64,000 nt of DNA from Hydrogenophaga taeniospiralis CCUG 15921 (lineage in GTDB: Bacteria > Pseudomonadota > Gammaproteobacteria > Burkholderiales > Burkholderiaceae_C). A model generated the notes under the pieces. That model did not search any database. It saw nothing but the letters and a program-made list of their open reading frames with translations, and had not been told where the DNA came from. Made by a program: the position numbers and the translations under genes. Where the stretch lies: NCBI RefSeq assembly GCF_001592305.1, contig NZ_BCWR01000003.1:1-64000 (forward strand), read 5' to 3'. Of the stretch, positions 20,782 to 36,641 are shown in pieces (position 1 is the stretch's first letter; each line of letters starts with the position of its first letter).

Positions 20782-20846
20782 GCGGGGAAGTGTAGGCCGC
20801 CGCCACCGCAGACGGGCCGGCCGGCCCGGCCGCCAACACCGGCTGA

Positions 20847-20876: not shown

Positions 20877-21024
20877 GGCGCTGCCGCCATCGGCCCGAGA
20901 CACGGCGGGCCGAGCATCCTCCCATCGGTTCCAGTGCACAGCGCTGCCGACCGCCGACCGGCCCGTCGTCCAGGTTGCTTCGAGCAGGTCCCACACCGTT
21001 CAACCTGTTTGACAAGGAGCCACC

Positions 21025-21420: not shown

Positions 21421-21442
21421 GCAAGCCCACAGGCTGCACGCC

Positions 21443-21838
<396 letters not shown>

Positions 21839-21890
21839 GAACCGTCCGGTCCCCGTCGCGTCCCGACCTACCGCACGCGCGGCCAGCCCA

Positions 21891-22262
21891 TCAACGCGAA
21901 CCGGGCCGCCCGGCAACGTCAACCGGTGGTGCGGTTTCCGGCACGTACACCATGCTGCCGTCCTTCATGCGGTACGCCACCCCCGCCTTCATGCCCTGGC
22001 CTTCGCCGATCTGTCCGGACGACTGGTATTGCTTGAGCTCATTGCCCTGCTTGACCAGCATTTCCATGTTGGGCTTGCCGGCGTTCTTGATGACCAACAC
22101 GTCCTGGGTAGCGAACGGATTCAGCGGGTTCTCCACCACGGCCATCAGCAGCACGGCGATCACCACCAGAAACACGTCGATGATGTTGACCACCGACAGG
22201 ATCGGGTCGTCCTCGTCCGAGTCACCCAGAATGTCGAGCTTCATGCGTCGGGCATCAGACAT
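21891..22262 (-). CDS. DUF2149 family membrane protein
   Basis: This 123-residue protein has one N-terminal membrane helix (NIIDVFLVVIAVLLMAVVENPLNPF) placed like that of ExbD/TolR, and a small periplasmic domain with a conserved K-Q-G-x-E-L-KQY-SSG-IGEGQG-KAG-AYR-DG pattern. DUF2149 proteins are found next to CobN-like chelatases and MotA/TolQ/ExbB channels, as here. By position and topology it probably replaces ExbD as the partner of the channel protein encoded just upstream. The ATG at 22262 overlaps the end of that gene by 8 bp; an in-frame TTG at 22280 is less likely. It is the last gene of the 14-gene minus-strand run. Confidence 0.88.
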   Translation of the reverse strand: MSDARRMKLDILGDSDEDDPILSVVNIIDVFLVVIAVLLMAVVENPLNPFATQDVLVIKNAGKPNMEMLVKQGNELKQYQSSGQIGEGQGMKAGVAYRMKDGSMVYVPETAPPVDVAGRPGSR

Positions 22263-22770
22263 GGGCCACGTCTCCCGCAACGGTGGCGCCGCAGGCGGGC
22301 AGGGCCCGCAACAAAGCGTTGAGCTCTTCCATCAGCCAGCGCCTGCGCACGGTTTGCACCACGAAGGTGATGGCCGCAGCCAGCAGCGCCACGATCACCG
22401 CGGCAAAGGCCACCACCAGGTTCTCGGCCATGCCCTTCGTGTTGCCCGCGGCCACCGCCACCAGCGCCGGCCCCATGGGAATCATGGTGGCCACCAACCC
22501 CAGCATGGGGGCCACGCGGCTGACGATGCGCTGCACCTCCAGCTGTTTCAACACATGCAGCTCCAGCCCATCCTCACCCAGGTGGGCGTGGCGCTGCCAG
22601 TAGCGGTGCAGTGGCCGCAGCCCGTGGGGCCGGCGCGTGCGCGCCAGCAGGTCGATGCTCACCTGCCCCAGGCTGAACAGCGCATACACGAACATCAGAC
22701 ACAACAGCACCAGCACGGGCGTCAGGAAGAACTTCGAAATCTCGTACAGGAAACTCTCAATGGCATTCAT
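22255..22770 (-). CDS. MotA/TolQ/ExbB-family proton channel protein
   Basis: This 171-residue inner-membrane protein has three hydrophobic segments (about 15-35, 92-112 and 118-142) and the family core RIVSRVAPMLGLVATMIPMGPALVAVAAG. It would form a proton-motive-force-driven channel with the DUF2149 protein encoded next. Its ATG overlaps the stop codon of the CobN-like gene (ATGA), so the two are translationally coupled. This is a second energiser in the same operon, distinct from the ExbB/ExbD pair upstream, and its pairing with CobN and DUF2149 mirrors the end of Hmu-type loci. Confidence 0.88.
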   Translation of the reverse strand: MNAIESFLYEISKFFLTPVLVLLCLMFVYALFSLGQVSIDLLARTRRPHGLRPLHRYWQRHAHLGEDGLELHVLKQLEVQRIVSRVAPMLGLVATMIPMGPALVAVAAGNTKGMAENLVVAFAAVIVALLAAAITFVVQTVRRRWLMEELNALLRALPACGATVAGDVAHV

Positions 22771-25700
22771 GGTTGGGCTTTCAGTGAAACAGGGGGCGTG
22801 AAGCGGACGGTGCGGCGGGCGCGCCAGGTCTGGAACAGCATCCCGGCGAGCACGATGGCCGCGGCCATCCAGCCGTAGATCCAGATGAGCTGCTGGACCG
22901 GGGTGTCGTGCCGCATTTCGCGCAGCTCCTGCCCGCGCACGGTGGGTGGCTCGGGTGCCGACGGAGGGTTCTGGGGCACATCGGGTGGCCGGGCGGCAGC
23001 TGGCCTGGGCACGGCGGGTGGGCTCGATACGCGCGATGCTGCCGCCTGGCTGGCCAGCCCAAAGCCCTGCGCCAGCTCGTTCACGTAGGCCTTGAACGTG
23101 TCGTTGGCGGTGAACACGTCGTGCCGGGCCGCCACCTCCTGGTAGACCTGCACCAGCTCGCGCTTGGTCTGTTCGTCGGCCTTCCAGTAGTCCTTGCGGA
23201 TGGCTTCCAGCATGCGCTCGGCCACCTGGGCCAGCGCCGTGGGGTTGGATTTTTCGAACCATTCGCGCATGCCCAGCTGGTAGCGGTCCTTGACGTAGGT
23301 CTCGTGAAATGCCTGCCACTGGTCGTCGCGCACCACGTTGCGGTCCATCACCTGCCAGCCCCAGAAGTTGTTCACCGTGTTGAGCATCTGCAGCGTGCCC
23401 GCGTAGCCTTCTTTCTGCATCTCCTTCATCCAGTTGGGATGCTGGTAGACCGAACGCAGCTCGGTGGCCATGAACCGCTCCGCCGTCTCCAGCCTGGCCT
23501 TGTTCGGGTCGCGCATGTTGGAGATGTAGAGCTGCGGGTTCTGGCCGTCCAGGAACTTCACCGCCTTGGAGATGCCGCCCAGGTACTCGAACGGATGGTC
23601 GGTGTCCAGCAGGCCGCGCAGGTTGCTGGAGCGCGAGAACACGGCTGCGTTGGTGCCGCGCAGGTGTTCGGCGTAGACGTTGATCTCCTGGCCCTTGCCG
23701 TCGGTGAGCTTGCGGCTCCAGTTCGCGGTGTTGGGGCCGTAGGCCCAGGACATGCGCGACAGGTAGAGCCGTTCCAGCTTGCCATCGCCATCGTCCCAGG
23801 TGTCGGACGCCAGCGAGGCGTCAGTGAGCTTGGTGCTGTAGTCGCCGCTTTCGTTGCCGAAGACCCGCGTCAGCGCGAACTCGCGGGCGTCCTCGGGCTT
23901 TACCCCCTGGGACAGCAGCGCGGCCTGGATGCGCTCGGTGTTGGCCTTGATGAAGTTCTGCTGACCGTCTTCCTTCAAGGCCGCCAGCATGACCACGGCT
24001 TCGTTGAAGCGCTCCATCACATTCGGGAACTGGTCGCGGTACAGGCCAGTGAGCGAGATCACCGCGTCGATGCGGGGGCGCCCAAGTTCCGCCTGCGCAA
24101 TCACCTCCATGCCCACCACGCGCCCGCCTTCGTCCCACTGGGGTTTGACGCCCATGGCGTAGAGAATCTGCGCTTCCAGCATGCCCAGATGGCGCATGGT
24201 CTCGGTGCTCCACATGGAGAAGGCCAGCTTCTCGGGGAACTTGCCGTGGGTGGCCTGGTAGCTGGTGATGAGCTGCTGCACCGCCTGGCGCCCCGCCTCG
24301 TAGGCGGCACGCGTGGGCACACGCCCGGGGTCGAAGCCGTACAGGTTGCGCCCGGTGTGCAGCGCGTCCGGGTTGCGGATCGGGTCGCCCCCGTAGGACG
24401 GGTCGATCCAGCGTGCCGACAACCCCCGGCTCACCCCCTCGATCTCCCAGGCCGCCCGCAAGTCCACCAGGAACTTGCGCCCGCGCAGCGCCAGCGCGCG
24501 CAGCTGTGTGTCGGTGAGCTCGTCCACCGGCCGGTCGGAGAACACGTAGTCCTCCACGAAGCGATAAGGCCGGGTCTGCTGCAGCGCCTGGTAGTCGCCC
24601 TTGAACGCGGCCTTCGCGTTCTTCACGCCGGTCTGTTCGTACAAGGGCTGGCCCAGCATCTGCATCACGTTGCTGATGAGGTGGGCACGCTCGGCGTCCT
24701 GGCCCAGGGTGTGCAGCCCCAGCGGCTGCATGGCCGAACCCAGGTCTTCCAGATAGTCCTCGATGTCGCGCAGGAACTTGTCGAAATTCCGCGCCAGGTC
24801 GGCCACCTGCCAGGCCATGTCCTTGTGCATGTTCATCTTCACCGCCTGCTCGATGATGAGCTTTCGGTTGTTGTCCTTCACCAGCCCGCTGTCCAGCGAC
24901 TGGTACTCGCGGATCAGGTCGTTGATCTTCACGAAGTCGTCGGACAGACCGGCCGGCGCGAACGCGGGCGTCTGGTGGCTCACGATCACGCCGCGCCCGC
25001 GGCGCTTGACGTGGATGGCCTCGGCGATGTTGTCCACGATGTACGGGTACACGATGGGCGTGTTGCCCACCAGGATGTTCGGGTCGTCATACGCCCACAG
25101 GCCGCGCTCCTTGCCGGGCGTCCACTCCTGCGTGCCGTGCGTGCCGAAGTGCACGATGGCGCTGGCCTTGAACTGCTCGCGTGCCCACAGGTAGGTCGCC
25201 ATGTAGAAGTGGTTCAGCGGCACCTTGGTGTCGTGGAACAGCTTCTTCTCGTCGTGCTGCCCGGCGGCGCTCTCGCTGCGCATGGGCTGCGGCAGCACCA
25301 CGAGCTTGCCCAGCTTCATGCGCGGGATCACGAAGCCGGTCACGCCATTCTTTTGGGCGATCCAGACGCTCTGGTCGGCCGTGCCCCAGAACTGGTTCAC
25401 GGTCTGGCGCACCTCGGGCGGCAGCGTGGCAAACCAGCGCTGGTAGTCGGCCAGCGGCAAAAAGTCCCAGTGCGCCGTCTTCATGAGTTCCGGCAGGGTG
25501 CCGGGGCGGTAGCCCGGGCGCAGCATCTGGCCCACGGAGGCAATGATGTCCTTCTCGCTCGTGCTGTCAAAGGCATAGCCCTCGGCCTTGAGCTGCGCCA
25601 CCAGGTGCTCGATGGAACGCGGCACGTTCAGGTTGGAGGCGCCCTGGTTCTTTTCTCCCGGCGGGTGGTTCCAGAAAAACAGCGCCACCCGCTTGTCGGC

Positions 25701-26948
25701 ATTGGCCGTGGTCTGCAGGCGCGCCAGGTTCACGGCCTTGCCCACCAGCATGTGCATCTGCTCGGGCATGGGCACCAGTTCACCGCCCTCGTTGGCGGTC
25801 AGCACCACCGGGTCCTGCAGGCCGATGTACTCGGCGTTCGTCAGCGTGAACGGCAGGTAGAAGCTGTTCACGCCCACGGTGTCCTTGCGGTACTCGGCAC
25901 GCGTGCCGCTGCGGTAGGAGAGCACGTTGATGACCGGCACCCCCATGGCCTTGTGCCAGGCCTTGCGCGCCTCGGGGTCCACACCCAGGAAGGTGTTGAC
26001 CAGCAGCACCTGCGGCAAGACCCGGCCCTCGTGGGTGATGAGTGGCTCGTTCACGGCCACGGCCGCGATCTCCCTGGGATTGGGAAAGCCAGCGCCCTGC
26101 TCGGCCGCCGCGGGCGCCCCGCTGGCGCCAGCCGCCACCGGGCGCCCGCCGCCACCGCCGCGCGGCGGACGGTCGGTGGCTTCGGGCTGGCCCGTGGCCG
26201 CCGCCTCACGCCCTGCGCGGGCCACGCGCGAGCTGCGGTAGAACATCAATGGCAGGGCACCGGCCTGCTCGATGGCCTGCACGGTCTCGTCCAGCATGCG
26301 CTGCTGACCGTCCGAGATGTAGCTGGACGACGTCTCGATGCCGATCACCGGCAGGCCCTGCCAGGGGCGACCCGCCCTGGCCTCCCACCACGCCAGGTAC
26401 TGCGGCAGTTGCTCGAACACCAGCCCGTCGTGGCCGGGGTGGTAGATGCCGCCATTGGGCAGCGCCAGCGGTGGCGCGATGGCGCCCAGGTCGCCGCCCT
26501 GGAGGATGGCCTGCAGGCACTGGAACAGCCGCTGGTGGTTGATCCGCGTGCCGCCCACGTAGTAGTCGAACACGCGCTGCGCCTGTTCCTTGTCCATGTG
26601 GATGGCACGCAGGCGCACCGGCGGACTCATGACGTTGATGCTGGCGGTGGGCAGGCTCAGCTCGCGCAGCCGCTGGCCGGCCACGCGCTCGATCTGCGCC
26701 TGATCGTCGCTGCGCGGCGCGTCGATCAGCACGAAACGCGCGCCTTCGAGCACACGCCGCGCGCCGGCCTCGCCCTCGACATCCACCTGCGTCCACGCGA
26801 GCTCGACGCCCTGTTCCCTGGCCACCGCTTCCATGAGCTTGAACTTGCGCTCCAGCACGAACTTTGTGGAGAGGATGGCCACCTTGTCCGCGGCCTGCGC
26901 CCAGGACCCCACCAGCGCCAGCAGGGCGCACAAGAAGAGACGTGTCAT
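22767..26948 (-). CDS. Exported CobN-like chelatase with C-terminal membrane anchor (HmuS-like)
   Basis: This 1393-residue protein is homologous to CobN/BchH, the large subunit of cobalt and magnesium chelatases. Recognisable core segments are FFWNHPPGEKNQGASNLNVP, IVHFGTHGTQEWTPGKERGLW, PYIVDNIAEAIHVKRRGRGV and LAFSMWSTETMRHLGMLEAQIL. Unlike cytoplasmic CobN it has a signal peptide (MTRLFLCALLALVGSWAQA) and a C-terminal membrane helix (LIWIYGWMAAAIVLAGMLF, about 1345-1365) with a short basic tail, so the body should lie in the periplasm. An extra Gly/Pro-rich insert (PPRGGGGGRPVAAGASG) lies near residue 260. No CobS/CobT motor genes adjoin it. Bacteroidetes HmuS proteins share this layout and are linked to removal of metal from haem. 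Here it could strip or insert a metal in a tetrapyrrole; the substrate is unknown. Confidence 0.85.
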   Translation of the reverse strand: MTRLFLCALLALVGSWAQAADKVAILSTKFVLERKFKLMEAVAREQGVELAWTQVDVEGEAGARRVLEGARFVLIDAPRSDDQAQIERVAGQRLRELSLPTASINVMSPPVRLRAIHMDKEQAQRVFDYYVGGTRINHQRLFQCLQAILQGGDLGAIAPPLALPNGGIYHPGHDGLVFEQLPQYLAWWEARAGRPWQGLPVIGIETSSSYISDGQQRMLDETVQAIEQAGALPLMFYRSSRVARAGREAAATGQPEATDRPPRGGGGGRPVAAGASGAPAAAEQGAGFPNPREIAAVAVNEPLITHEGRVLPQVLLVNTFLGVDPEARKAWHKAMGVPVINVLSYRSGTRAEYRKDTVGVNSFYLPFTLTNAEYIGLQDPVVLTANEGGELVPMPEQMHMLVGKAVNLARLQTTANADKRVALFFWNHPPGEKNQGASNLNVPRSIEHLVAQLKAEGYAFDSTSEKDIIASVGQMLRPGYRPGTLPELMKTAHWDFLPLADYQRWFATLPPEVRQTVNQFWGTADQSVWIAQKNGVTGFVIPRMKLGKLVVLPQPMRSESAAGQHDEKKLFHDTKVPLNHFYMATYLWAREQFKASAIVHFGTHGTQEWTPGKERGLWAYDDPNILVGNTPIVYPYIVDNIAEAIHVKRRGRGVIVSHQTPAFAPAGLSDDFVKINDLIREYQSLDSGLVKDNNRKLIIEQAVKMNMHKDMAWQVADLARNFDKFLRDIEDYLEDLGSAMQPLGLHTLGQDAERAHLISNVMQMLGQPLYEQTGVKNAKAAFKGDYQALQQTRPYRFVEDYVFSDRPVDELTDTQLRALALRGRKFLVDLRAAWEIEGVSRGLSARWIDPSYGGDPIRNPDALHTGRNLYGFDPGRVPTRAAYEAGRQAVQQLITSYQATHGKFPEKLAFSMWSTETMRHLGMLEAQILYAMGVKPQWDEGGRVVGMEVIAQAELGRPRIDAVISLTGLYRDQFPNVMERFNEAVVMLAALKEDGQQNFIKANTERIQAALLSQGVKPEDAREFALTRVFGNESGDYSTKLTDASLASDTWDDGDGKLERLYLSRMSWAYGPNTANWSRKLTDGKGQEINVYAEHLRGTNAAVFSRSSNLRGLLDTDHPFEYLGGISKAVKFLDGQNPQLYISNMRDPNKARLETAERFMATELRSVYQHPNWMKEMQKEGYAGTLQMLNTVNNFWGWQVMDRNVVRDDQWQAFHETYVKDRYQLGMREWFEKSNPTALAQVAERMLEAIRKDYWKADEQTKRELVQVYQEVAARHDVFTANDTFKAYVNELAQGFGLASQAAASRVSSPPAVPRPAAARPPDVPQNPPSAPEPPTVRGQELREMRHDTPVQQLIWIYGWMAAAIVLAGMLFQTWRARRTVRFTPPVSLKAQP

Positions 26949-26949
26949 C

Positions 26950-27672
26950 TCAGGATTCCTTGAATTCGTAAGCAATGGGAATGCGCAACTGCGCCACGCG
27001 ACCGGGCTGGTGCGTGGCGCGGACCAGATCCGCGGCCTGGCGCACCAGTTGCAGCGCAGCCTCGTCCAACGCCTTGAAGCCCGAGCCGCTGACCACGAAG
27101 CAATCCAGCAACTCGCCCTGAGCGGAGAAATGCGCCTCCACCGTCACCAGGCCCTCCTGGCCCATGCGCCGCGCCACCATGGGGTATTGCTTGTGCTTGA
27201 GCAGTGCGGCTTCCAGCAGACCTTCCCAGCGCGCCTGCTGCGCCGCCGGCGGGTTGGCGCTGGGCGGTGCGGGCGCCACCACCGCCGGTGTGGCGGCGCG
27301 AGAGGCTTCGGTGTTCACCGTCGCCACGGGCGCGGCCGGGATCACCGTGTCGGCGGCCGTTGCCACGGCATCGGAGTAGGGCTGGATGCTCGGCGTGACC
27401 GTTGGCGCGGGCGGCTGGGGCGCCGGCTGTGCACGGGCGGTGGGCTGTGGTTGGACCTCTGGCGGCGCAGGGACTGGCGATGGCGGTTGGACTGCCGGCT
27501 CGGGCGGTTGCTCCGCCGCCCACTGGATGGCCATGTCCAGCCGCGTGGACGGCGGGATCGGCGCCGGGCTGTGGGCCACCCCCCAGGCGAGGGCCGCGAC
27601 CAGCGCGGCATGCAACACGACCGAGCGGCCCCAGTCGTGCCAATGCAGGCGGTGTGAAGCCATGGTGTTCAT
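26950..27672 (-). CDS. tonB: TonB energy-transducing protein
   Basis: This 240-residue protein has one N-terminal membrane helix (SVVLHAALVAALAWGVA), a long Pro/Ala/Gln-rich periplasmic spacer (about 38-145) and a C-terminal TonB domain. That domain contains YPMVARRMGQEGLVTVEAHF and the GSGFKALDEAAL stretch. It couples the ExbB/ExbD motor encoded upstream to the two TonB-dependent receptors of the same operon. Its ATG overlaps the exbD stop codon (ATGA), and only one base separates its stop codon from the CobN-like start. Confidence 0.93.
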   Translation of the reverse strand: MNTMASHRLHWHDWGRSVVLHAALVAALAWGVAHSPAPIPPSTRLDMAIQWAAEQPPEPAVQPPSPVPAPPEVQPQPTARAQPAPQPPAPTVTPSIQPYSDAVATAADTVIPAAPVATVNTEASRAATPAVVAPAPPSANPPAAQQARWEGLLEAALLKHKQYPMVARRMGQEGLVTVEAHFSAQGELLDCFVVSGSGFKALDEAALQLVRQAADLVRATHQPGRVAQLRIPIAYEFKES

Positions 27673-28034
27673 GAGCGCTTGACCTCCAGGCTGACCTGCT
27701 GGAAGCCCAGCGACTTGACCCTGTCCACCAGTTCCACAAAGCTGCTCAGCGCCAGGCGCCCGTCGGCGCGCACCACCACCGGCGTGCTGCGCGGCTGCGG
27801 GTCGAGTGCCGCCGCCAGGTCGCTCACCGGCTGGTCGTTCAGGTACAGGGTCTGGTGTTGCGTGAACGTCAGCACCAGTGGCGCGGTGGGGGAAGCCACC
27901 GCAGACCTGGCGACCGCCAGGTCCACGGGTATGCGCCCGTTCACCACGAAGGTGGCCGTGGTGAGCACGATGGTGAGCAGCACCAGCATCACGTCCACGA
28001 GGGGCACGACGTTGATGTCGTCGATGTCGTCCAT
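27669..28034 (-). CDS. exbD: ExbD/TolR-family biopolymer transport protein
   Basis: This 121-residue protein has a single N-terminal membrane helix holding the proton-pathway Asp (PLVDVMLVLLTIVL) and a small periplasmic domain ending in FVELVDRVKSLGFQQVSLEV. With ExbB it forms the motor that energises TonB. It lies 7 bp after exbB and overlaps tonB by 4 bp, forming a compact exbB-exbD-tonB unit. Confidence 0.93.
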   Translation of the reverse strand: MDDIDDINVVPLVDVMLVLLTIVLTTATFVVNGRIPVDLAVARSAVASPTAPLVLTFTQHQTLYLNDQPVSDLAAALDPQPRSTPVVVRADGRLALSSFVELVDRVKSLGFQQVSLEVKRS

Positions 28035-28041
28035 GGCGCCG

Positions 28042-28467
28042 TCAGCCCCCGTGGGCCTCGTCGAAGTCCGTCAGGCGCTCTCGCACGCGGCGGCGCAAGG
28101 CGTTGTTCAGCGCCACGCAGGGGATCGCGACCACGATGCCCGCGGCCGTGGCCTTGAGCGCCAGGGCCAGCCCGGTCATGATGGATTTCACGTCCATCTC
28201 GCCGGTGGCGCCCAGGGTCTGGAAGGTGAGCATGATGCCCAGCACCGTGCCCAGCAGCCCGAGGTAGGGCGCGTTCGAGGCCACGGTCCCGATGACGTTC
28301 AGGCGCCGCGTGAGGTCGCTCTCCAGCCGGGCGCGGCTGGTGTAGCCACGCGCATCGATCCGGCGGAAAAAGCGCTGCCGCTCCAGTGCGATGGCCACCA
28401 CCGCCACGCTGAGCAGCAGCAGGATGCCGAACACGGCGTATTCCACGAGGGGGCGAAGTCCTTGCAT
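28042..28467 (-). CDS. exbB: ExbB/TolQ-family proton channel protein
   Basis: This short (141-residue) ExbB has three membrane segments. Its family core is VASNAPYLGLLGTVLGIMLTFQTLG, then MTGLALALKATAAGIVVAIPCVALNNAL, where the conserved Thr/Ala of the proton path are visible. It lacks the long N-terminus of standard ExbB, as in the ExbB type-2 energisers that accompany dedicated TonB systems. It starts 9 bp after the second TonB receptor, so receptor and motor are coexpressed. Confidence 0.92.
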   Translation of the reverse strand: MQGLRPLVEYAVFGILLLLSVAVVAIALERQRFFRRIDARGYTSRARLESDLTRRLNVIGTVASNAPYLGLLGTVLGIMLTFQTLGATGEMDVKSIMTGLALALKATAAGIVVAIPCVALNNALRRRVRERLTDFDEAHGG

Positions 28468-28476
28468 GGAGCCTCC

Positions 28477-30777
28477 TCAGAACCGCAGGGCCAGCCCGAC
28501 GCGCCAGACACGTCCCGGGTCGACGGTGATGGACATATCCTCGGCGTTGTACCGGCCGTCGTACCGGAAGTTGGTGGCATAGCTCTGCGAGTCGTTGGTG
28601 CCGCGGGCGATGGTGTAGTGGCGCTTGTCGAACACGTTGTCCACCCGCACGAAGGCGCTCAGCCTGGCCCCGCTGAGCCAGGTGGTCTTGCGCCCGTAGT
28701 CGGCCATCAGGTTGAACACCGTGCGGCCCGGCCACTTTTCCTGGTTGATTTCGTCGGCCCAGGCCGTGGCGCGGTAATCGAGTTCGGCCGACAGCTTCCA
28801 GGCCGGGTCCGGCTTCCACGACGTGCGCAGGTTGACGGCATGGGGCGGCACGCGGGGCACCTTGTTGCCGGTGTTGTTGTAGGGCACGAGCTGGTAGCAG
28901 TTGTTCCAGTTGGGGTTGGGGCCCATGCAGGCGCCGGTGCCGACCAGCGTGCCGCGCGGATTGCCCAGGGCCTGCAGGAACTGGTCGTACCGGGTGAAGG
29001 TCGAGTCCAGGTAGGTGTAGGCCAGGTCCCAGCTCCAGGCCGGCGAGATCGAGGACTGCAGCGCCAGCTCCAGGCCACGCGAGCGCGCCCCGCCGATGTT
29101 TTCGTACCGTGCGATGTTGGCCGCATTGCCGTTTGAATACTGGCCGTTGGTGTCCAGGATGAAGTCCTTGCGGTCGATCTGGAACACCGCGGTCTGCAGG
29201 CTGGCCTCACGGTCCAGCAGCGTGAAGCTCTTGCGCATGCCGACCTCGAAGTTGATGGCCTGCTCCGTCTTCAGGTCGGGGTTGTTGGCCACGCTGCCCG
29301 AGGGGTTCTGGCTGCCGCGGTAGAGCTGGTCCACCGTGGGGGCGCGAAAGCCGGTGGAGATGTTGCCGAACAGCACGGTGTTGGCCAGGCCGCTCCAGCT
29401 CAGGCCCAGGCGCGCGCTGTCGGCATCGAAGCTTTTGCGTTCGGCGATGGCGGAATTGCCGTTGCCGGACACCGGCTGGGCGTCGTAGTCGAGCTCGATG
29501 CGGTCGTGGCGCAGGTTGCCGGTCAGCGTCCAGTCCGTGGCCAGACGCCACTGGCCTTCGCCATAGAGCGCCTGCACGTTTTCGCCGGTGCGGTCGTCGG
29601 TGAACACGGTGCCTGCCGCCGTGGGCCTTTCCATGGGGCTCGGGCTGTTCCTGTAGCCGACCATGGCATGGGTCTGGTTCAGGTACTCGTTGCGCTTGAT
29701 CTCCACCCCGCCCATCCAGGCCATCGGACCCGTGGTGGTGCGCAACTCGCTCTTCACGCCGCGCTGGGTCTGGTGGTAGTCGTTGAACGTGGTGTAGGCG
29801 TCGGGGCTGGAGACGGGGGCACCGGTGGAGCTGAAGCGTTGCGGTGCCGACCAGAACTGGGTGTGATCCCGGTACTGGTAGGCCAGCGCCAGCAGGTTGG
29901 TGTGGTCGGACAGGTCGTTGGAATAGGTGAGGTTCACACGCTCCAGGTCCACGTCGAAGTGGCGCGCGTAGTCGCGGCCCAGCGTGCCCCTGGGGTCGAG
30001 CGCGGCCTGCGTCACGCCGGTCACGGTGCCGTGCTTGTCGCGAAAGCGGTCCTCTTTTTCCAGGCCCAGGGTCAGGTCGGAGTGGCCATTCAGCAGCCAG
30101 CGCAGGTTGCCCGCGAGCGCCTGGGACTTGTAGTTCGACTGGAAGTGGTAGTCATCGGCCTTGCGCTGGGACAACTGCAGGTGGCCGGACCAGTTGTCGC
30201 TCGCGCGGCCGATGCGCGCCAGCTCGCGCTGGTAACCATAGGCCCCCACATCGGTCTCGACGGACACGCCTTTGTGGGTGGCGCCACGCTTGGTGGTGAT
30301 GATGACCGCGCCAGCGAGCGCGTCCTCGCCGAACAGGTAGGACGCGCCGCCTTTGATGACCTTGATGCTCTCGATGTTGTCCAGGTTGATGTTGACCTTG
30401 CCGGTGCGCTCGAACACCGGCACGCCGTCGATGACGATGGCCACGCCCGGCTTCTCGCCCATGTACCGCTGGTTCTCCACACCGCGGAACTTGATCTTCA
30501 GGTCGTCCCCACCCTGCGTGTCGATGGTCACGCCCGGAATGGCCTTGAGCACCTGCACCAGGTTATCGGCATGCTGTGCCTCGATCTCGCGCCCGGACAG
30601 GCTCACCGTGCTGGTCGGTTCGCGCGTGCTGTCGCCGAAGCGGTCGTCGATGGTGGAGCCGGTCACGGTGGTCTGGCGCAGGGTCTGCGTCGGGGCCGGG
30701 CCGGTCTGCGCCCAGGTGCCCGGGGCGGCCAAGGCCGCGACGGCGGCGGCCAGGAGGGTTTTTTGGGTGGTCTTCAT
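28477..30777 (-). CDS. TonB-dependent outer membrane receptor of unknown substrate
   Basis: This 766-residue receptor has a signal peptide (ending PGTWAQ), a plug domain (about 40-165, with VLKAIPGVTIDTQGGDDLKIKFRGV, GVAIVIDGVPV, IKVIKGGASYLFGEDALAGAVIITTKRG) and a 22-strand-type barrel ending in F (VGLALRF). FRAP (near 477) and NPDL (near 500) boxes occur as in haem receptors, but the His usually found between them is absent. It sits directly before exbB-exbD-tonB and the CobN-like gene, which suggests a metal-tetrapyrrole or other metal-chelate ligand. No TonB-box identity or substrate can be read with certainty. Confidence 0.9.
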   Translation of the reverse strand: MKTTQKTLLAAAVAALAAPGTWAQTGPAPTQTLRQTTVTGSTIDDRFGDSTREPTSTVSLSGREIEAQHADNLVQVLKAIPGVTIDTQGGDDLKIKFRGVENQRYMGEKPGVAIVIDGVPVFERTGKVNINLDNIESIKVIKGGASYLFGEDALAGAVIITTKRGATHKGVSVETDVGAYGYQRELARIGRASDNWSGHLQLSQRKADDYHFQSNYKSQALAGNLRWLLNGHSDLTLGLEKEDRFRDKHGTVTGVTQAALDPRGTLGRDYARHFDVDLERVNLTYSNDLSDHTNLLALAYQYRDHTQFWSAPQRFSSTGAPVSSPDAYTTFNDYHQTQRGVKSELRTTTGPMAWMGGVEIKRNEYLNQTHAMVGYRNSPSPMERPTAAGTVFTDDRTGENVQALYGEGQWRLATDWTLTGNLRHDRIELDYDAQPVSGNGNSAIAERKSFDADSARLGLSWSGLANTVLFGNISTGFRAPTVDQLYRGSQNPSGSVANNPDLKTEQAINFEVGMRKSFTLLDREASLQTAVFQIDRKDFILDTNGQYSNGNAANIARYENIGGARSRGLELALQSSISPAWSWDLAYTYLDSTFTRYDQFLQALGNPRGTLVGTGACMGPNPNWNNCYQLVPYNNTGNKVPRVPPHAVNLRTSWKPDPAWKLSAELDYRATAWADEINQEKWPGRTVFNLMADYGRKTTWLSGARLSAFVRVDNVFDKRHYTIARGTNDSQSYATNFRYDGRYNAEDMSITVDPGRVWRVGLALRF

Positions 30778-30823
30778 CTGGAAACCTGTCTGGTTTTTGG
30801 GGGAAGGGTTTGGGTTTTGAGGC

Positions 30824-33118
30824 TCAGAACTTCAGGTTCACGCCCGCGTACAGCGTGCGGCCCATGCCCGGCACCGCCGTGCCCCACTGCGGGTAGTTGG
30901 GCAGCATGGGGTTGCTCATCGTGGTGCCCTGGCCGACGTAGGCGCCGCCCGTGGGCAGGAAGTACAGCCGGTCGAACAGGTTCTCGATGCCGAAGTCCAG
31001 CCGCACCGTTTTCCACGAGTAGCTGCCGCGCAGGTGGACCAGCCCGTAGCCCGGTGTCCGGATTTCGTTGCGCACCGATGACACGGTGGTCTTGGCCTTC
31101 ACCGCCACCAGTTCCAGGCTGTTGTCCCAGCCGCCGGTCTTGTGGGTCAGCACCAGCTTGCCGTTGAGCGGCATCACGTTGTAGAGCCCGTCGCCGGTGT
31201 CGAGGTTTTTCCCGTGGGTGACGTTCAGCAGGCCCTTGAGGCCCCAGTCACCCAGCGTGTTGGTGGCCAGCGGTGCGTGCCCGGCCAGGTCCACGCCAAC
31301 CAGGCGCGCGGTCTGGTTGGTGTAGCGCAGCACGCTGAACTTGTTCCTCACCGGGGTTGCGACGGCCTGGTTGGTGGTGGCGTCCCACTGGACCGCGTCG
31401 ATGTAGTCGCTGACGCGCGTGTAGTACGGCGTGGCCTGGAAGCCCCAGGTCTTGTCGGTGGCGTGCCAGTCGAACGTGGCGGACAGCGTGTTGGCCTTCT
31501 CGGGCTTCAGGTCGAGGTTGCCGACGTAGCCGTTGCCGTCGCCCACGAAGTTGTTCATCAGCGCAGCCATCTGCCAGGTGGACCAGGGGAAACGTTCGTA
31601 GACGTTGGGCGAACGCTCCTTGTGGGCAAAGCCGAACTCGATGTCGACCTGCTCGCTGGCGGTGTAGCGCGCCAGGGCCGTGCCATCGACGTTGGTGTCG
31701 GTCGAGCGGTGGTCGCGGGCGTTGAAGGCGTTGGCGTCGCGGGCCTGGAAGCCCATGCCGGCCGGGTTGTAGCCGACCGCGCTGCCAGCGTTCATCGCCA
31801 CCCGCTCCACACGCGCACCGACCAGCGTCATCCACTGCGCGCTCGGTCGCGACTCCCATTCGCTCCAGAGCCCGGTGCGGTCGCGCTCGCCGTCGCGGAT
31901 GTTCCAGAAGGTGCCGGGGTACATGCCACCGCCCGAGGGCGTCCACCAGTCGTTGATGCGGTAGCGCTGCAGGTCGATGCCCGCGCGCAAGCGGTCCTGC
32001 TCGCTCAGCGGCAGCTCGCCCTTGACGCTGAAGCCGGTGGTCTTGCCCTCGGTGAACATGGGCATGCCAGCGGCGCAGCTGGCGCTGATGGGGCTGCAGG
32101 GGGCGCCGTTGACCACCATCGGTCCGCCCGATCCAAGGCCGTACCAGTAGCGCTTGTCGGCGCCGAAGTCCATGAAGTGGTCCACGGTCTCGTGGTAGAC
32201 GCGCGCTTCCAGCGTGCCCCAGTCGAGCTGGCCGGTGTAGCTCAGGTTGATGCTCTTCTGGTCGTTGTCGAGCAGGTCCATGCGCTGATTCGGGTAGAGC
32301 TGGTAGGGCATGTCCTGCACCCCCAGCTTCGCCTCGAAGAGGTGGTTGTCCTGCTTGAAGGCCAGCCCCAGGGTGTGGTTGCGCGTCTCGTAGGCGGTGG
32401 AGCCCACTTCGTCGCGCGCCAGCGTGTGGCCCGGCCGGCCGGTGAAGTCGTAGGTCTTGAAGTCACCGCCCGCCGAGGTGTTGTCGGCCTGGCTGGTGGC
32501 GCCGCTGTAGTTGACGTTGAGCTGCTCGGTGGCCAGGGTGGCCGAGAGGTTCAGGCCACGCGCGCTGTTGTTGCTGCGGTAGAAGGCGCCCACCTCGCCG
32601 CGGCGGATGGTGGCTTCACCCGGTTGCGCAAATTCGGGCGCGCGCGTCTCGGCCAGGATGCTGCCGCCGATGCTGTCGCCGCCGGCGCTCACCGGCGAGA
32701 TGCCGGCGTACACCTTGAGCGAACCCAGTTGTGTGGGATCGATGTAGGAGAGCGCTGGATTCATGTGGTTCGGGCAGGAGGCGATCAGGTCCATGCCATC
32801 GACCTGGATGCGCAACCGGTCGTCGGCCAGGCCGTGCATCGAAGGCAGGCTGGACACGCCACCCGCCCCATTGAGGCTCACACCGGGGATGTCCTGCAGC
32901 AGGCGGGCGGTGTCGCTGGTGGCCGCCCGCTGCGCCTGCAGGCTGGCCGGGTCCACGGGGGTGGCGCCGGGCAGCGCGTCCTGGTCGGCACGGACGGTCA
33001 CGGTCGGCAAGGTGCTGACGGCGGCGTCCTGCGCCAGCGCCTGGCTGCACAGCAGGCTCAGCGCGGGCATGGCCAGCGCCATGGCGCGGTGGAGATGGGA
33101 CGCGCGAAGTTCGGTCAT
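30824..33118 (-). CDS. OprC/NosA-like copper TonB-dependent receptor
   Basis: This 764-residue receptor has a signal peptide ending SQALAQ, a plug and a barrel ending LYAGVNLKF. The plug contains MDLIASCPNHMNPALSYIDP, with Cys115 and Met119 forming the CxxxM half of the copper site known in Pseudomonas OprC. The barrel part contains HFM (His314, Met316), matching the HxM half. The segments SPNVYERFPWSTWQMA and GNGYVGNLDLKPEKAN are also OprC/NosA-like. It should import copper across the outer membrane. It follows a PCuAC chaperone gene by 57 bp and is followed by a second receptor and a dedicated TonB motor. Confidence 0.9.
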   Translation of the reverse strand: MTELRASHLHRAMALAMPALSLLCSQALAQDAAVSTLPTVTVRADQDALPGATPVDPASLQAQRAATSDTARLLQDIPGVSLNGAGGVSSLPSMHGLADDRLRIQVDGMDLIASCPNHMNPALSYIDPTQLGSLKVYAGISPVSAGGDSIGGSILAETRAPEFAQPGEATIRRGEVGAFYRSNNSARGLNLSATLATEQLNVNYSGATSQADNTSAGGDFKTYDFTGRPGHTLARDEVGSTAYETRNHTLGLAFKQDNHLFEAKLGVQDMPYQLYPNQRMDLLDNDQKSINLSYTGQLDWGTLEARVYHETVDHFMDFGADKRYWYGLGSGGPMVVNGAPCSPISASCAAGMPMFTEGKTTGFSVKGELPLSEQDRLRAGIDLQRYRINDWWTPSGGGMYPGTFWNIRDGERDRTGLWSEWESRPSAQWMTLVGARVERVAMNAGSAVGYNPAGMGFQARDANAFNARDHRSTDTNVDGTALARYTASEQVDIEFGFAHKERSPNVYERFPWSTWQMAALMNNFVGDGNGYVGNLDLKPEKANTLSATFDWHATDKTWGFQATPYYTRVSDYIDAVQWDATTNQAVATPVRNKFSVLRYTNQTARLVGVDLAGHAPLATNTLGDWGLKGLLNVTHGKNLDTGDGLYNVMPLNGKLVLTHKTGGWDNSLELVAVKAKTTVSSVRNEIRTPGYGLVHLRGSYSWKTVRLDFGIENLFDRLYFLPTGGAYVGQGTTMSNPMLPNYPQWGTAVPGMGRTLYAGVNLKF

Positions 33119-33175
33119 GGGAAATCCTTGTTGTTGAAGCCAAAAAGAGCCATCGGGTTGATGCGGCCATGGCGG

Positions 33176-33691
33176 TCAGTGGTGCACGTGCCCGGGCGCG
33201 GGGCGGCGGGGGGTCTGCACCCAGACCATCACTTCGCGCTCCCCCGCACGCTCGAAGCGCAGCGTGAGGGGGAAGCGCTCGCCGTCCTGGAGCGGTGCCT
33301 TCAGCTCGAACAGCATCAGGTGGTGGCCGTTCGGCGTGCCGTGGCGCAGCTGCAGCTCGCTGCGGGCCGGCAGCGCCAGCGCGGGCACGGCGCGCATGCG
33401 CATGACGTCGCCGTCCATCCGCATCTGGTGGATCTCCACGCGTGCCGCGACGGGCGTGGTGGCCGAGAGCAGGCGGTCGGCCTGCACACCGGGGTTCCTG
33501 AGGGTGCGGAAATACACCGCGCCGGTCTTGAGCCCTGGCACGCTGGGCGTTGCATAGGGGTGGTCGATGCGCAATTCGCCGGCCTTGAAGTCGTGCGCCA
33601 GGGCTGCGCCCATCGCCGCGCACAAGGCCCACGCGCACAGGGCCTTGCGCGCCCGTTCCGAGCGCCTTCGGAGCGGCCGGGTGGCGCTCAT
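33176..33691 (-). CDS. PCuAC-type periplasmic copper chaperone
   Basis: This 171-residue exported protein (basic N-terminus, then ALCAWALCAAMGAALAH) belongs to the PCu(A)C/DUF461 family. The copper-binding pattern is visible as His88-X10-Met99 and His124-X-Met126, with extra Met (90, 92, 97), and the C-terminus ends in PGHVHH. Such proteins bind Cu(I) in the periplasm and deliver it to the CuA or CuB site of cytochrome oxidase. Its ATG overlaps the stop codon of the Crp/Fnr-like gene, so chaperone and regulator are coupled. It is more divergent than the second copy at 34853-35341. Confidence 0.9.
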   Translation of the reverse strand: MSATRPLRRRSERARKALCAWALCAAMGAALAHDFKAGELRIDHPYATPSVPGLKTGAVYFRTLRNPGVQADRLLSATTPVAARVEIHQMRMDGDVMRMRAVPALALPARSELQLRHGTPNGHHLMLFELKAPLQDGERFPLTLRFERAGEREVMVWVQTPRRPAPGHVHH

Positions 33692-34329
33692 GCGGCCGCT
33701 CCCAGCGGTGTCGCGTTGGCCGCCCAGGCCGTGGTCAGGCGCCCGGGGGCAACGCCCGACCAGTCGCGCACGGGGCGCACCGGCCCGGGCTTGCGGCTGC
33801 GCGGGGGCAGCAGTTGCGCCAGGGCGCGGCACACGGTTTCGGTCTTCGCGTCGACCACCTGCGCCACCTCGCGCAGGGTGGGCAAGGCGTCGCGAATGGC
33901 ATCGGCCTCTCCGTTCAGCGCCCGCCGGTCGGGCCGCCAGTCCAGGCCCATCAGGCACAGCAGATGGGTGATGCGCTGGGGCACGCTGCCGGTGCGCAGG
34001 GCGGTCATGTCTTCGCTGCGGTCCTGGTGCTGCAGCAGGGCCTGCTGCAGCAACGGCACGCGCAGACTGTCGGCGTCCAGCGCCATACGCTCCAGACGGC
34101 AGGCGGTGAAGGCGGTGGCGCTGAACTGGTAGCGCCGCTCGCACAGGGATTCGACGCCGATCAGGTCACCCGGCAGGGCGAGCTGCACCGGCTGGCGGGT
34201 CGGACCGCTGTCGCGGTCGAGGCGAACGATGCCTTCCAGCACGCGCCACACGGGGCCGGCTTCACCGGCGAAAAAAACGGACTCGGCCTTCACAAAGGCG
34301 CGCGCGTCCACACGGACGGAAGGGGTCAT
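33688..34329 (-). CDS. Crp/Fnr-family transcriptional regulator
   Basis: This 213-residue protein has an N-terminal cyclic-nucleotide-binding-like beta-roll (GPVWRVLEGIVRLDRD, LALPGDLIGVESLCERRYQFSATAFT) and a C-terminal helix-turn-helix (ALPTLREVAQVVDAKTETVCRALAQL). The N-terminal Cys cluster of FNR is absent, so it should not carry an Fe-S cluster of that type. Two Cys (in ESLCERR and FTACRLE) could serve in metal or redox sensing, which is speculative. A good AGGAG site precedes the ATG at 34329; longer readings upstream are rejected. It lies inside the copper run and is translationally coupled to a copper chaperone, so copper- or redox-responsive control of this operon is the natural guess. 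Confidence 0.85.
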   Translation of the reverse strand: MTPSVRVDARAFVKAESVFFAGEAGPVWRVLEGIVRLDRDSGPTRQPVQLALPGDLIGVESLCERRYQFSATAFTACRLERMALDADSLRVPLLQQALLQHQDRSEDMTALRTGSVPQRITHLLCLMGLDWRPDRRALNGEADAIRDALPTLREVAQVVDAKTETVCRALAQLLPPRSRKPGPVRPVRDWSGVAPGRLTTAWAANATPLGAAA

Positions 34330-34415
34330 GAGGAGCTCCTGAAACTGACGAACCGGCCACCGATGGCGTGCAACGGCAGCGAGACGGGACCTCCACGGCG
34401 GGAGGCCGGCGGGTG

Positions 34416-34805
34416 TCAGACCAGAAGCGGGGGGCCGCGCGCGGCGGCATGGGGCGCGGCGCAGGACAGCGCGGCACGGGCGATGTACCCGGGAGGGGAT
34501 CGGTGGCCGGGCAGGACCGCCACGGCCGGGAAGGTCGGGATCAGTGGCGCGAACCGTTCGGCCGCCAGGCTGCAATAGCCACAGAAGTCCAGCGCGTGGG
34601 CCGGATCGTCGGCATCGGCGACCACGCCTGGTGCGCCGGGTGCCTCCAGCTGCACCCAGCGCATCCCGCTGGTGGTGCAGATTTCCACCCAGTCCCCCGC
34701 CACACGCGTGGAGGCCAGCGTGCGCGAGATGGCCGGCGCGAGCGCGGCCAGCAGCATCGCGCCCAGCAGGGCACGCGCAAGCAGGCGCATCAGGCGGACC
34801 GGCAT
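34416..34805 (-). CDS. DUF2946 family protein
   Basis: This 129-residue exported protein has an N-terminal hydrophobic segment (LLARALLGAMLLAALAPAIS) and the DUF2946 pattern WVEICTTSGMRWV, then HALDFCGYCSLA. The three conserved Cys could bind metal. The family is usually found beside copper chaperones and OprC-type receptors, as here, but has no proven function. An in-frame ATG at 34790 is an alternative start. A related copy occurs at 36125-36508. Confidence 0.85.
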   Translation of the reverse strand: MPVRLMRLLARALLGAMLLAALAPAISRTLASTRVAGDWVEICTTSGMRWVQLEAPGAPGVVADADDPAHALDFCGYCSLAAERFAPLIPTFPAVAVLPGHRSPPGYIARAALSCAAPHAAARGPPLLV

Positions 34806-34852
34806 GGAATCTTCAGCTCAAGCGAAGGCGTTTCAGCGCAGACCGTCGAGGC

Positions 34853-35341
34853 TCAGTGCTTGTGTTCCATGCCCGGCTTCATGGGCATGGGCATGGGCAT
34901 GGCCGCGTTGCCTCCGCCCAGCGCGGTCACCGGCGCCTTGACTTCCTGCGTGAAACGCTTCTTGGCTTCGTCTTCGAACACCAGGGTGAGGGGCACGCTC
35001 TCGCCGCCCTTGAGCTGCTGTTTCAAGTCCATCAGCATCACATGAAGACCGCCGGGCTTGAGCTCCGTGGTGCGGCCAGCGGCCAGCTCCACCCCTGGCA
35101 CCTGGCGCATCTTCATGACGTCGTTTTCCATCGCCATTTCGTGGATTTCCACCACGCCGGCCACGGGCGACTCGACCGCCACCAGACGGGCATTGGCCGT
35201 GGGCGTGAGGCGCATGAAGGCGCCCGAAGCCTTTTGTGTGGCCACGGTGCCGCGCACCCAGGCGTCTTCGACCTTGACCGCGGTTTGCGCCCAGGCACTG
35301 GCGGTGACGGCGAGCAGCGTAGCGATGAGCAGTTTTTTCAT
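34853..35341 (-). CDS. PCuAC-type periplasmic copper chaperone, second copy
   Basis: This 162-residue chaperone has a clean signal peptide (MKKLLIATLLAVTASAWAQ) and a perfect H-X10-M-X21-H-X-M copper site (His67, Met78, His100, Met102). The C-terminal tail is rich in Met and His (AAMPMPMPMKPGMEHKH), encoded by a short ggcatg repeat, and could add Cu(I) sites. It acts with the SCO protein encoded just upstream in delivering copper to the CuA centre of cytochrome c oxidase. The leader before its ATG carries a heptamer repeat. Confidence 0.95.
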   Translation of the reverse strand: MKKLLIATLLAVTASAWAQTAVKVEDAWVRGTVATQKASGAFMRLTPTANARLVAVESPVAGVVEIHEMAMENDVMKMRQVPGVELAAGRTTELKPGGLHVMLMDLKQQLKGGESVPLTLVFEDEAKKRFTQEVKAPVTALGGGNAAMPMPMPMKPGMEHKH

Positions 35342-35366
35342 GGGAACTCCTGTTGAGAAACGTTGA

Positions 35367-35393
35367 GGGAAAAGGGAAAAGGGAAAAGGGAAA
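35367..35393. repeat. Heptanucleotide tandem repeat (gggaaaa)
   Basis: Almost four units of gggaaaa fill the 64-bp gap between the SCO and PCuAC genes. In the minus-strand mRNA this is a pyrimidine-rich tract (ccctttt repeats) lying before the AGGAGTT ribosome site of the PCuAC gene. Unit gain or loss would change spacing between the two genes but not any reading frame. Confidence 0.85.
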
Positions 35394-35405
35394 GAGGAGA
35401 AAGCT

Positions 35406-36059
35406 TCAGGCCGGCTTCTCGGCCAGCAATTGCCGGATGTCGGCGGTGTAGTCGTCGGCCGTCTGTTCGTGGCGCAGCACCACGCGGATGCGGCCTTCGC
35501 GGTCGAACAGGTAGCTCAGCGCGGTGTGGTCCATGGTGTAGGTGTTGCCGGTCGGGACTTTCTTGTAATAGACCCGGAATTCGTCGGCCACCGCCTTGAT
35601 CTGCGCCGGGCTGCCGGTGAGTGCCATGAACGAGGGGTCGAACGCGGCCATGTAGTCGCGCAGCAATTCGGGCGTGTCGCGCTCCGGGTCCACGGTGACG
35701 AAGATCACCTGCAGTTGCGCGGCGTCGGCGCCGAGCTGCTGCTTCACGGCAGCGGCCCGCGTGAGCGCCGTGGGGCACACATCGGGGCACTGCACGAAGC
35801 CGAAGTACAGCATCACCACCTGCCCACGGTAGTCGGCCAGGGTGCGCGACTGGCCGTTGAAATCGGTCAGCGCGAACTGGCGCCCGTAGGCGGCGCCGCT
35901 GATGTCGATGCCCTTGAAGACCGGGGTCGGTGCGCCCAGGGGTGTCTGGTCACAGCCAGCCAGCAGGCCGCCCAGGGCCAGCCCGCCCAGCCACAGGGTG
36001 GCCGCACGGCGGCGGGGATCGGCGGGCGCACCCGCGCGAGAGACAGGAAAACGAGGCAT
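35406..36059 (-). CDS. SCO1/SenC-family copper chaperone lipoprotein
   Basis: This 217-residue thioredoxin-fold protein has a lipobox (GGLLAGC, Cys36) and the copper-binding set of SCO proteins: CPDVC (Cys91, Cys95) and His178 in MDHTALSYL. SCO proteins hold copper and act as thiol-disulfide reductants when the CuA site of cytochrome c oxidase is assembled in the periplasm. It is flanked by a DUF2946 gene and a PCuAC gene, its usual working partner. No Cys or His ligand appears to be lost. Confidence 0.95.
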   Translation of the reverse strand: MPRFPVSRAGAPADPRRRAATLWLGGLALGGLLAGCDQTPLGAPTPVFKGIDISGAAYGRQFALTDFNGQSRTLADYRGQVVMLYFGFVQCPDVCPTALTRAAAVKQQLGADAAQLQVIFVTVDPERDTPELLRDYMAAFDPSFMALTGSPAQIKAVADEFRVYYKKVPTGNTYTMDHTALSYLFDREGRIRVVLRHEQTADDYTADIRQLLAEKPA

Positions 36060-36124
36060 GGGGCCTCCTGAACATCAGGGAACACACGCAGCACCCACGA
36101 CCGGGGTGTGCAACCGTGGTGAGT

Positions 36125-36508
36125 TCAGGCGGAGAGCGGGGGCGCGCGGGCCAGGCCCGAGGCCCAGGTGCCGCGCAACGCGGCGGTGCGCAAATAGATG
36201 GGGAGCGGTTCGGCCTGAGGCGCCAACGGCTCGGCGCCTGCCGACACCGGTGGCAGCCCGGGCACACCGCCGTGCAGGCTGCACCACGGGCAGTCCATGG
36301 CGCCGGACGCCATGGGGGCGTCGCCCGAGGCCGGGTCGGCGTCGGCCTGGACCCACACCATGCCGCTGACGCTGCACACCTGCACCCAGCCGTCGTGGTC
36401 CGAAGAGGCCACGACCGCCTGCGCCACGGTGGGCGCCAACGCGCCCAGCACCATGGCGAGCATGGCCAGCCAGGCGGTGAAACGGCGGTGGGCGCGGGCG
36501 AACGGCAT
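36125..36508 (-). CDS. DUF2946 family protein, first gene of the copper/TonB run
   Basis: This 127-residue exported protein (FTAWLAMLAMVLGALAPTVAQA) has the DUF2946 pattern WVQVCSVSGMVWVQ and then MDCPWCSLHGG, with conserved Cys positions. It is paralogous to the protein encoded at 34416-34805. It is the most upstream of 14 consecutive minus-strand genes, so the operon promoter should lie in the 133-bp gap shared with the divergent GST gene. No obvious operator is seen there. Confidence 0.85.
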   Translation of the reverse strand: MPFARAHRRFTAWLAMLAMVLGALAPTVAQAVVASSDHDGWVQVCSVSGMVWVQADADPASGDAPMASGAMDCPWCSLHGGVPGLPPVSAGAEPLAPQAEPLPIYLRTAALRGTWASGLARAPPLSA

Positions 36509-36641
36509 CGGCGCAGTTTAGCAGCCTGCCCGGGCCCGGACCATCGCTGTTGCCTGCGCGACGCCCGCGGGCCACCCCGGGCCGATACGATGCGGGACCC
36601 AGGAACCTGTTTCTGACAGACCTCTCACCCGGAGACAACCC

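Follow-up and report, generated by a model that had tools for sequence, protein, structure and literature searches.

Why should a gene for a CobN-like protein, a homologue of class I chelatases, stand in line with genes for copper uptake and copper delivery? The question arises from the first 64,000 nucleotides of contig NZ_BCWR01000003.1 of Hydrogenophaga taeniospiralis CCUG 15921 (hereafter the window), where 14 genes follow each other on the minus strand from position 36508 to position 21891. In transcription order they encode a DUF2946 protein, SCO, PCuAC, a second DUF2946 protein, a Crp/Fnr-type regulator, a second PCuAC, an OprC-type receptor and a second TonB-dependent receptor (TBDR2), followed by ExbB, ExbD, TonB, the CobN-like protein, a MotA-type protein and a DUF2149 protein. 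Neighbouring genes are spaced by -8 to +86 bp. All 14 products match, above the Pfam cut-offs, the families that an earlier note on this DNA had named. To our knowledge, copper acquisition under limitation in Gram-negative bacteria is poorly known. The reading that we favour, with a probability of about 0.5, is that the run is one copper-repressed acquisition operon in which the CobN-like protein frees copper from an imported chelate for use by cuproenzymes. The evidence lies in the gene content, the CruR architecture of the DUF2946 proteins, two OprC ligands, the linkage of gene neighbourhoods and an active-site histidine. The best-supported reading is one copper-repressed operon for acquisition and delivery, of which the link with copper is very probable; for the CobN-like protein as the periplasmic release enzyme of an imported copper chelate, a proposal drawn from sequence comparison, we see slightly less than an even chance.

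The first gene (36125-36508) encodes a DUF2946 protein (PF11162, 63.4 bits), and the fourth gene (34416-34805) encodes another (47.9 bits). Both proteins have the architecture of CruR, a copper-responsive leader, in which a CXXC motif is followed after 44 residues by RAPP or RGPP close to the C-terminus (CPWC and RAPP in the first protein, RAPP being 3 residues from the C-terminus; CGYC and RGPP in the second). In Bordetella, copper is sensed by the nascent CruR protein, which brings about termination before the copper receptor gene is reached; the hallmark of CruR is a CXXC and a RAPP motif some 45 residues apart near the C-terminus (PMC9426467). The gaps 3' of the two DUF2946 genes in the window measure 65 and 86 bp, that of Bordetella CruR is longer, at 162 bp (PMC9426467). 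Among 13 non-redundant DUF2946 open reading frames found near CobN genes, 12 of them near clade A and one, a weak match in L099, near clade B (clades and L-numbered loci are described below), the spacing between CXXC and R[AG]PP is 42-46 residues in 13 of 13. The second gene (35406-36059; PF02630, 164.7 bits) encodes the oxidase-assembly copper chaperone SCO1/SenC, and the periplasmic copper chaperone PCuAC is present in two copies, a (34853-35341; PF04314, 129.6 bits) and b (33176-33691; 114.6 bits). These are the two PCuAC genes of the 5.28-Mb genome, and two of its three DUF2946 genes, the third being borderline, also lie inside the run. The close relative G882 (L010) has its two PCuAC genes and its two DUF2946 genes within 5.5 kb of one contig.

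The receptor encoded at 30824-33118 has OprC as its closest solved relative (68.7 bits); in the alignment, C115 and M119 of the window receptor (CPNxM) coincide with the OprC plug ligands C143 and M147. It shares with OprC of Pseudomonas aeruginosa these Cys and Met ligands and the presence of an HxM motif (PMC8610252), which in the window receptor is at residues 314-316, outside the stretch aligned to OprC with its barrel ligands H323 and M325. The overall similarity is low, and the receptor fails the cut-off of the TIGR01778 'TonB-copper' equivalog model (115 of 472 bits); its earlier description as OprC-like is nonetheless borne out. Together, the gene content supports the prediction of a locus for copper acquisition and delivery to oxidase. 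The copper half belongs to a known type, that of CruR/OprC/PCuAC/SCO (PMC9426467): operons headed by CruR, such as cruR-crtA-crpH of Bordetella, have in common with the window the DUF2946 leader, a copper receptor, PCuAC and SCO, and sometimes include ExbBD-TonB as well (PMC9426467, PMC12914433, PMC13038864). The window differs from them in having two CruR genes and the CobN-MotA-DUF2149 module; the main text of none of the three papers contains the term CobN.

The neighbourhoods of CobN-like genes in other genomes bear on the connection between the two halves. In a tree of 79 CobN-like rows, the window protein (22767-26948; PF02514, CobN-Mg_chel, 952 bits) belongs to clade A, which has 26 rows and a support of 100 in the Shimodaira-Hasegawa-like approximate likelihood ratio test (SH-aLRT). 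Locus L018, a short CobN fragment that is 74% identical and has the same motif, was added outside the tree, giving 27 genomes: 13 of the window's own beta-type side, five of methanotroph type (three from Methylococcaceae or Methylomonas) and nine of genus g434, of the same class. The sample comprised 80 of 96 relatives plus genomes drawn from larger groups, and in part of the genome sampling at most 2 candidates were scored per genome. Counted as copper genes were DUF2946, SCO, PCuAC, OprC-type and MbnP/MbnH genes. Such genes flank the clade-A CobN in 14 of the 27 genomes, namely in 8 of 13 on the window's side (window, L003, L004, L008/L017, L009/L019, L010, L018, L130), in 6 of 9 in genus g434 (L131, L132, L133, L134, L136, L137) and in none of the five of methanotroph type. 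Every row of the window's own 6-row subclade has copper genes in its flank. The count omits L011, with a truncated PCuAC remnant lacking a Pfam match, L015, with a receptor and a PepSY_TM gene about 5 kb downstream, and the duplicates L140 (of L008) and L141 (of L017). The same searches gave copper genes at 0 of 62 biosynthetic-type CobN loci (alphaproteobacterial, assigned to this type at 24-31% identity, eight of them in the tree) and at 0 of 13 clade-C loci (L106 and L112 were left out because they have no CobN match). Of the 29 loci in clade B and its neighbours, 5 had copper genes, in each case PCuAC and within a single family. Fisher tests, which ignore kinship and unequal flank lengths, gave p = 0.01 for clade A against clade B with neighbours and p = 3e-10 against clade C with the biosynthetic type.

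The copper genes are joined to the CobN half in several arrangements. TBDR2-ExbB-ExbD-TonB-CobN is preceded, at 125-131 bp, by a DUF2946 gene in L004 and L009; in L008 the order is DUF2946-SCO-PCuAC-TBDR2-CobN, in L019 DUF2149-DUF2946-receptor-PepSY_TM, in L130 DUF2149-MbnP-MbnH, and in L134 MbnP-MbnH-MbnH-TBDR2-CobN. This variety makes a single inherited accident less likely. As side observations, in the clade-B loci L090, L093, L098 and L101, and also in L099, which has in addition the weak DUF2946 gene, the PCuAC gene is upstream on the opposite strand, a second and weaker link to a copper chaperone; and in L139 the clade-A CobN gene lies beside a second, divergent CobN-like gene with Cys at the position of the histidine discussed below, each behind its own receptor.

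By its sequence, with a signal-like N-terminus (judged by eye) and a hydrophobic C-terminal segment, the CobN-like protein is predicted to be exported and anchored by that segment, unlike the cytoplasmic biosynthetic CobN. Its closest solved relative is HmuS, the heme de-chelatase of the Bacteroidota heme operon hmuYRSTUV (PMC12583661). Both histidines of the HmuS central cleft, His-538 and His-1209, are kept (motifs HFGTHG and DTDHPFEYLGG); for His-1209, one of two such histidines, a role in holding the porphyrin or in its protonation has been proposed (PMC12583661). At this position, His is present in all 24 readable clade-A rows (2 of the 26 are cut), in the C-terminal pieces L017, L018 and L019, in three other HmuS proteins and in an Azospirillum relative. 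Asp is found in 8 of 8 biosynthetic CobN proteins and in 12 of 12 readable clade-C rows (L120 not among them). Of 30 rows from clade B and its neighbours, 27 have Asp, two His and one Cys. The window protein may work like HmuS.

These two histidines also favour a rival explanation, by which the CobN half would de-chelate heme or otherwise handle heme iron in the manner of Hmu, and would share its regulation with the copper genes since heme and copper are both required as cofactors by heme-copper oxidases. With hmuYRSTUV (L173) the window has in common a TonB-dependent receptor, the CobN-like protein, a MotA/ExbB-type subunit and DUF2149, and TBDR2 scores best on the TonB-hemin model, though under the cut-off (181.8 of 316.85 bits). 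Still, we consider a heme system improbable. All 680 HmuS sequences of a 2025 study have a methionine-rich insertion in domain IV (PMC12583661), which is absent from the window protein, where 64 residues without any Met separate the aligned blocks, against 230 in HmuS. In addition, Gln-1198 and Trp-1202 of the HmuS pocket are replaced by Ser and Arg, and the HmuS rows form their own branch (100 SH-aLRT) apart from the window protein. For these three reasons membership of HmuS was ruled out. Peak Met density is a poor measure here, as two of the three other HmuS proteins have 8-9 Met per 100 residues and the window protein has 7, and for the head/neck heme site of HmuS (Met-79/His-254) the N-terminal region of the window protein aligned unreliably. 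The 14 genes include no gene for HmuY or HmuT; instead, there are copper neighbours and an additional ExbB-ExbD-TonB set, and de-chelation would destroy the very cofactor that the oxidase requires. Separately, a CobN-like row from the window's family (L105, genome G016) carries SLDHVYEFMGG, a motif of HmuS, and clusters with HmuS in the tree that includes it, which suggests an HmuS-type gene outside Bacteroidota.

The receptor TBDR2 (28477-30777; PF00593/PF07715) connects the halves in another way. Its AlphaFold2 model, with a mean predicted local distance difference test score (pLDDT) of 32.7, was too poor for a fold search. Of 399 genomes from the order, 17 have an orthologue at E <= 1e-100, the window's own included, and the fetched stretches of the other 16 (L189-L204) contain no match to CobN or DUF2149. 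Nine of these 16 genomes have an OprC-type gene near TBDR2 (seven genes complete, two cut at the edge), and the seven complete ones all keep C..HM and an HxM. TBDR2 is thus tied to an OprC-type receptor independently of CobN. In 15 of the 16 (L195 is cut), TBDR2 is accompanied by Fe-S and DsbD homologues together with TonB, ExbB and ExbD; the Pfam domains Fer4_5 and DsbD_2 were confirmed in L193 only. Upstream in L193 is a DUF2946 gene (Pfam 32.4 bits) whose protein lacks the RAPP end, and L192 has a weaker match; a scan of L189-L204 for CXXC/RxPP gave nothing, and neither PCuAC nor SCO was found in the 16 stretches. CobN may replace or supplement a reductive release route. The recurrent combination of TBDR2 with an Fe-S protein, a DsbD-type protein and TonB-ExbB-ExbD resembles copper import with a transmembrane electron route.

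Two putative motors are encoded in the run. Downstream of TBDR2 are the genes of ExbB (28042-28467; PF01618, and above the cut-off of the NCBIfam model TIGR02805, exbB2), ExbD (27669-28034; PF02472, 75.5 bits) and TonB (26950-27672; PF03544, 57.7 bits). The CobN-like gene is followed by those of a MotA/TolQ/ExbB-type channel subunit (22255-22770; HmuU-like, with a weak PF01618 match of 24.5 bits at a cut-off of 22.9) and of DUF2149 (21891-22262; HmuV-like, PF09919, 95.5 bits). DUF2149 has an ExbD-like transmembrane stretch of which the Asp is invariant in 69 of 69 aligned open reading frames; a profile comparison with ExbD gave a weak match (27 columns, E 2.6e-4, probability 42%) that points to a shared transmembrane motif and nothing beyond it, and the AlphaFold2 model (mean pLDDT 56.5) was too poor for a fold search. 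MotA and DUF2149 flank CobN in 24 of 27 clade-A genomes, the others being L006 (a cut contig), L133 and L139, and ExbD and TonB are in the flank in only 6 of 27. From this difference we infer that the MotA-DUF2149 motor serves the chelatase rather than the receptor. Both motors occur together in the window and on plasmid pGLOV01 of Trichlorobacter lovleyi (L176), which likewise combines MotA-DUF2149-CobN with ExbB-ExbD-TonB and receptors; unlike the window, the plasmid cluster has DUF2162, no annotated copper gene in the stretch and Asp at the position of the histidine.

A working model for the locus would be as follows. The 14 genes would be co-transcribed and would respond to copper in Hydrogenophaga: when copper is sufficient, the nascent CruR (DUF2946) proteins would sense it and switch off the downstream genes. 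Under copper scarcity, the OprC-type receptor would import ionic copper and TBDR2 a copper chelate, both powered by the operon's own ExbB-ExbD-TonB. The membrane-anchored periplasmic CobN-like protein would strip copper from the chelate, the substrate probably being tetrapyrrole-like or macrocyclic, and the ExbB/ExbD-like MotA-DUF2149 motor may energise it in place of the AAA+ protein CobST. PCuAC and SCO would then hand the copper to oxidase, with heme-copper oxidases as the chief targets. The more specific version, in which a class I chelatase homologue is run in reverse by a proton-driven MotA-DUF2149 motor and so acts as a periplasmic copper de-chelatase for copper-tetrapyrroles or similar macrocycles, is tentative and to our minds rather unlikely. 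The literature searches made yielded no enzyme that releases copper from macrocycles. Should the CobN-like protein do so, copper-porphyrins would serve as a source of copper, and class I chelatases would form a family of release enzymes, each specific for its metal. In a wider sense, the exported CobN-MotA-DUF2149 set could be a machine for freeing metals in the periplasm generally, heme iron, zinc, nickel and copper each having a lineage of their own. The locus makes two points testable, the cargo of TBDR2 and whether MotA-DUF2149 drives the chelatase and not the receptor.

Several observations weigh against the proposed copper-chelate operon. In 13 of 27 clade-A genomes no counted copper gene is present in the flank, some of the contigs being short, and PCuAC genes are also found near 5 clade-B loci. 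Many of the loci are related, so the counts are not independent; on the tree, no fewer than 6 changes of the copper label are required inside clade A (L011 and L015 being labelled copper in this count). In the methanotroph-type loci L005, L007 and L013, CobN is found with another type of receptor and with DUF4198-like, Fe-S and DsbD genes; in L005, L007 (2442-14972) and L013 we also noted a 2-hydroxyacyl-CoA dehydratase D-like protein and a BadF-type activator. On a Sulfurovum plasmid (L170), a reductase set resembling this one adjoins a receptor similar to TBDR2. Clade-A members that lack copper genes also have the equivalent of His-1209, as does the Azospirillum CobN near nikR; the residue therefore marks the chemistry at most, not copper. 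As TBDR2 is found without CobN, its ligand need not be a tetrapyrrole. The window CobN-like gene is the sole PF02514 gene found in the genome, so there is no second copy by which a biosynthetic role could be excluded. The infrequency of ExbD and TonB in clade-A flanks belongs here as well, and the assignment of the motor to the chelatase is countered by L106 and L112, which have MotA and DUF2149 but no CobN match. Finally, cobW lies near the clade-A CobN in L012 and L136, the latter with a Zur-box-like palindrome in front, from which it follows that the same type of enzyme may serve zinc.

Accordingly, the CobN-TonB half could be a zinc-acquisition module that came to lie behind a copper operon by an accident of lineage. 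Its model would be PA1922-PA1925 of P. aeruginosa, a Zur-regulated set of the zinc-starvation response with the same core of receptor, CobN-like, ExbD/MotA-type and DUF2149 proteins in that order (PMC4542158, PMC9431628). The window itself has no Zur-like palindrome at up to 2 mismatches from the single E. coli-type consensus core tried, with which 2-mismatch matches were obtained in L129, L138, L139 and L150. The consistent copper flanks of the window's subclade and the pairing of TBDR2 with OprC-type genes even without CobN further argue against zinc. Moreover, the His of clade A is mostly replaced by Asp in the sister clade B, which shares the PA1922-PA1925 order; on this ground a PA1923-type identity was rejected, the PA1923 sequence itself not having been compared. 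We judge the zinc explanation improbable, on a par with the heme one.

The proposal that two unrelated operons are adjacent by chance finds some footing in the clade-A members that lack copper genes and in the 46 bp gap at the junction, which exceeds the gaps inside the CobN half. Against it, the junction recurs with varied partners (DUF2946-TBDR2, PCuAC-TBDR2, OprC-TBDR2, DUF2149-MbnP, DUF2149-DUF2946 and MbnH-TBDR2), none of the 62 biosynthetic-type CobN loci shows a copper junction, and the pair of TBDR2 and an OprC-type receptor is found in other families too, so that chance adjacency seems distinctly improbable. The least probable of the explanations weighed, that the CobN half serves cobalt, cobalamin or nickel, could draw on the family name, the sole CobN-family gene found in the genome, the Runella relative inside a hyp cluster, the Azospirillum relative near nikR and the Trichlorobacter plasmid carrying CobN with both motors, but no cobalamin riboswitch reached the Rfam gathering score in the window or in 7 related loci, by which cobalamin regulation was rejected, and the 14 genes, the part of the genome checked for cobS and cobT, include copper genes but no cobS, cobT, hyp or nik. 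The CobN-MotA-DUF2149 core is also carried by plasmids of Runella, Trichlorobacter and Azospirillum; the receptor-MotA-DUF2149-CobN genes of Runella slithyformis plasmid pRUNSL01 (L175) are embedded among the hydrogenase-maturation genes hypF/C/D/E, and this position suggests that the CobN module has a nickel version.

Returning to the copper-acquisition operon, neither half is new, since the CobN module and the copper half have each been described. The earlier note knew of no system combining all these parts; the combination of CobN with a copper operon was indeed not found in the open-access literature searched, in which PMC3352902 contains both terms CobN and OprC, while each half has a precedent. 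The note further proposed the run as a candidate integrated system for metal import and delivery, and here the copper gene content and the company of copper genes in the CobN protein's own clade agree with it. SCO itself is found near CobN in just 2 of 27 clade-A genomes. It had asked for the comparison of CobN neighbourhoods and named rare co-occurrence of the halves as the outcome that would speak against it. In clade A the halves do co-occur, to judge by the copper flanks and by the pairing of TBDR2 with OprC-type genes at CobN-free loci; in the wider family, co-occurrence is rare.

The remaining gene of the run, at 33688-34329, encodes the cNMP-binding Crp/Fnr-type regulator (PF00027, 29.8 bits at a cut-off of 27.5); its start, at about 34329, and that of the second PCuAC gene, at about 33691, put the overlap of the two genes at 4 bp, and Crp/Fnr-type homologues are also close to CobN in L010, L014 and L017. 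The run is bounded on one side by a divergent glutathione S-transferase gene at 36642 and on the other by a gap of about 1.1 kb, followed by a response regulator gene (20020-20784). The promoter/terminator scan did no better than shuffled sequences, terminator-like sites in 20500-37000 showing no excess (8 against 8.1 in the shuffles). Ten open reading frames sampled from the rest of the window look chromosomal (TamB, PurH-type, carbamoyltransferase, chemotaxis). Perfect tandem repeats are present at two places: AGGGAAA is repeated four times at 35366-35393, between the SCO gene and the first PCuAC gene, and the hexamers GCAACG (7.5 copies) and GGCAGT (4.5 copies) occupy 21744-21811, directly downstream of the DUF2149 gene.

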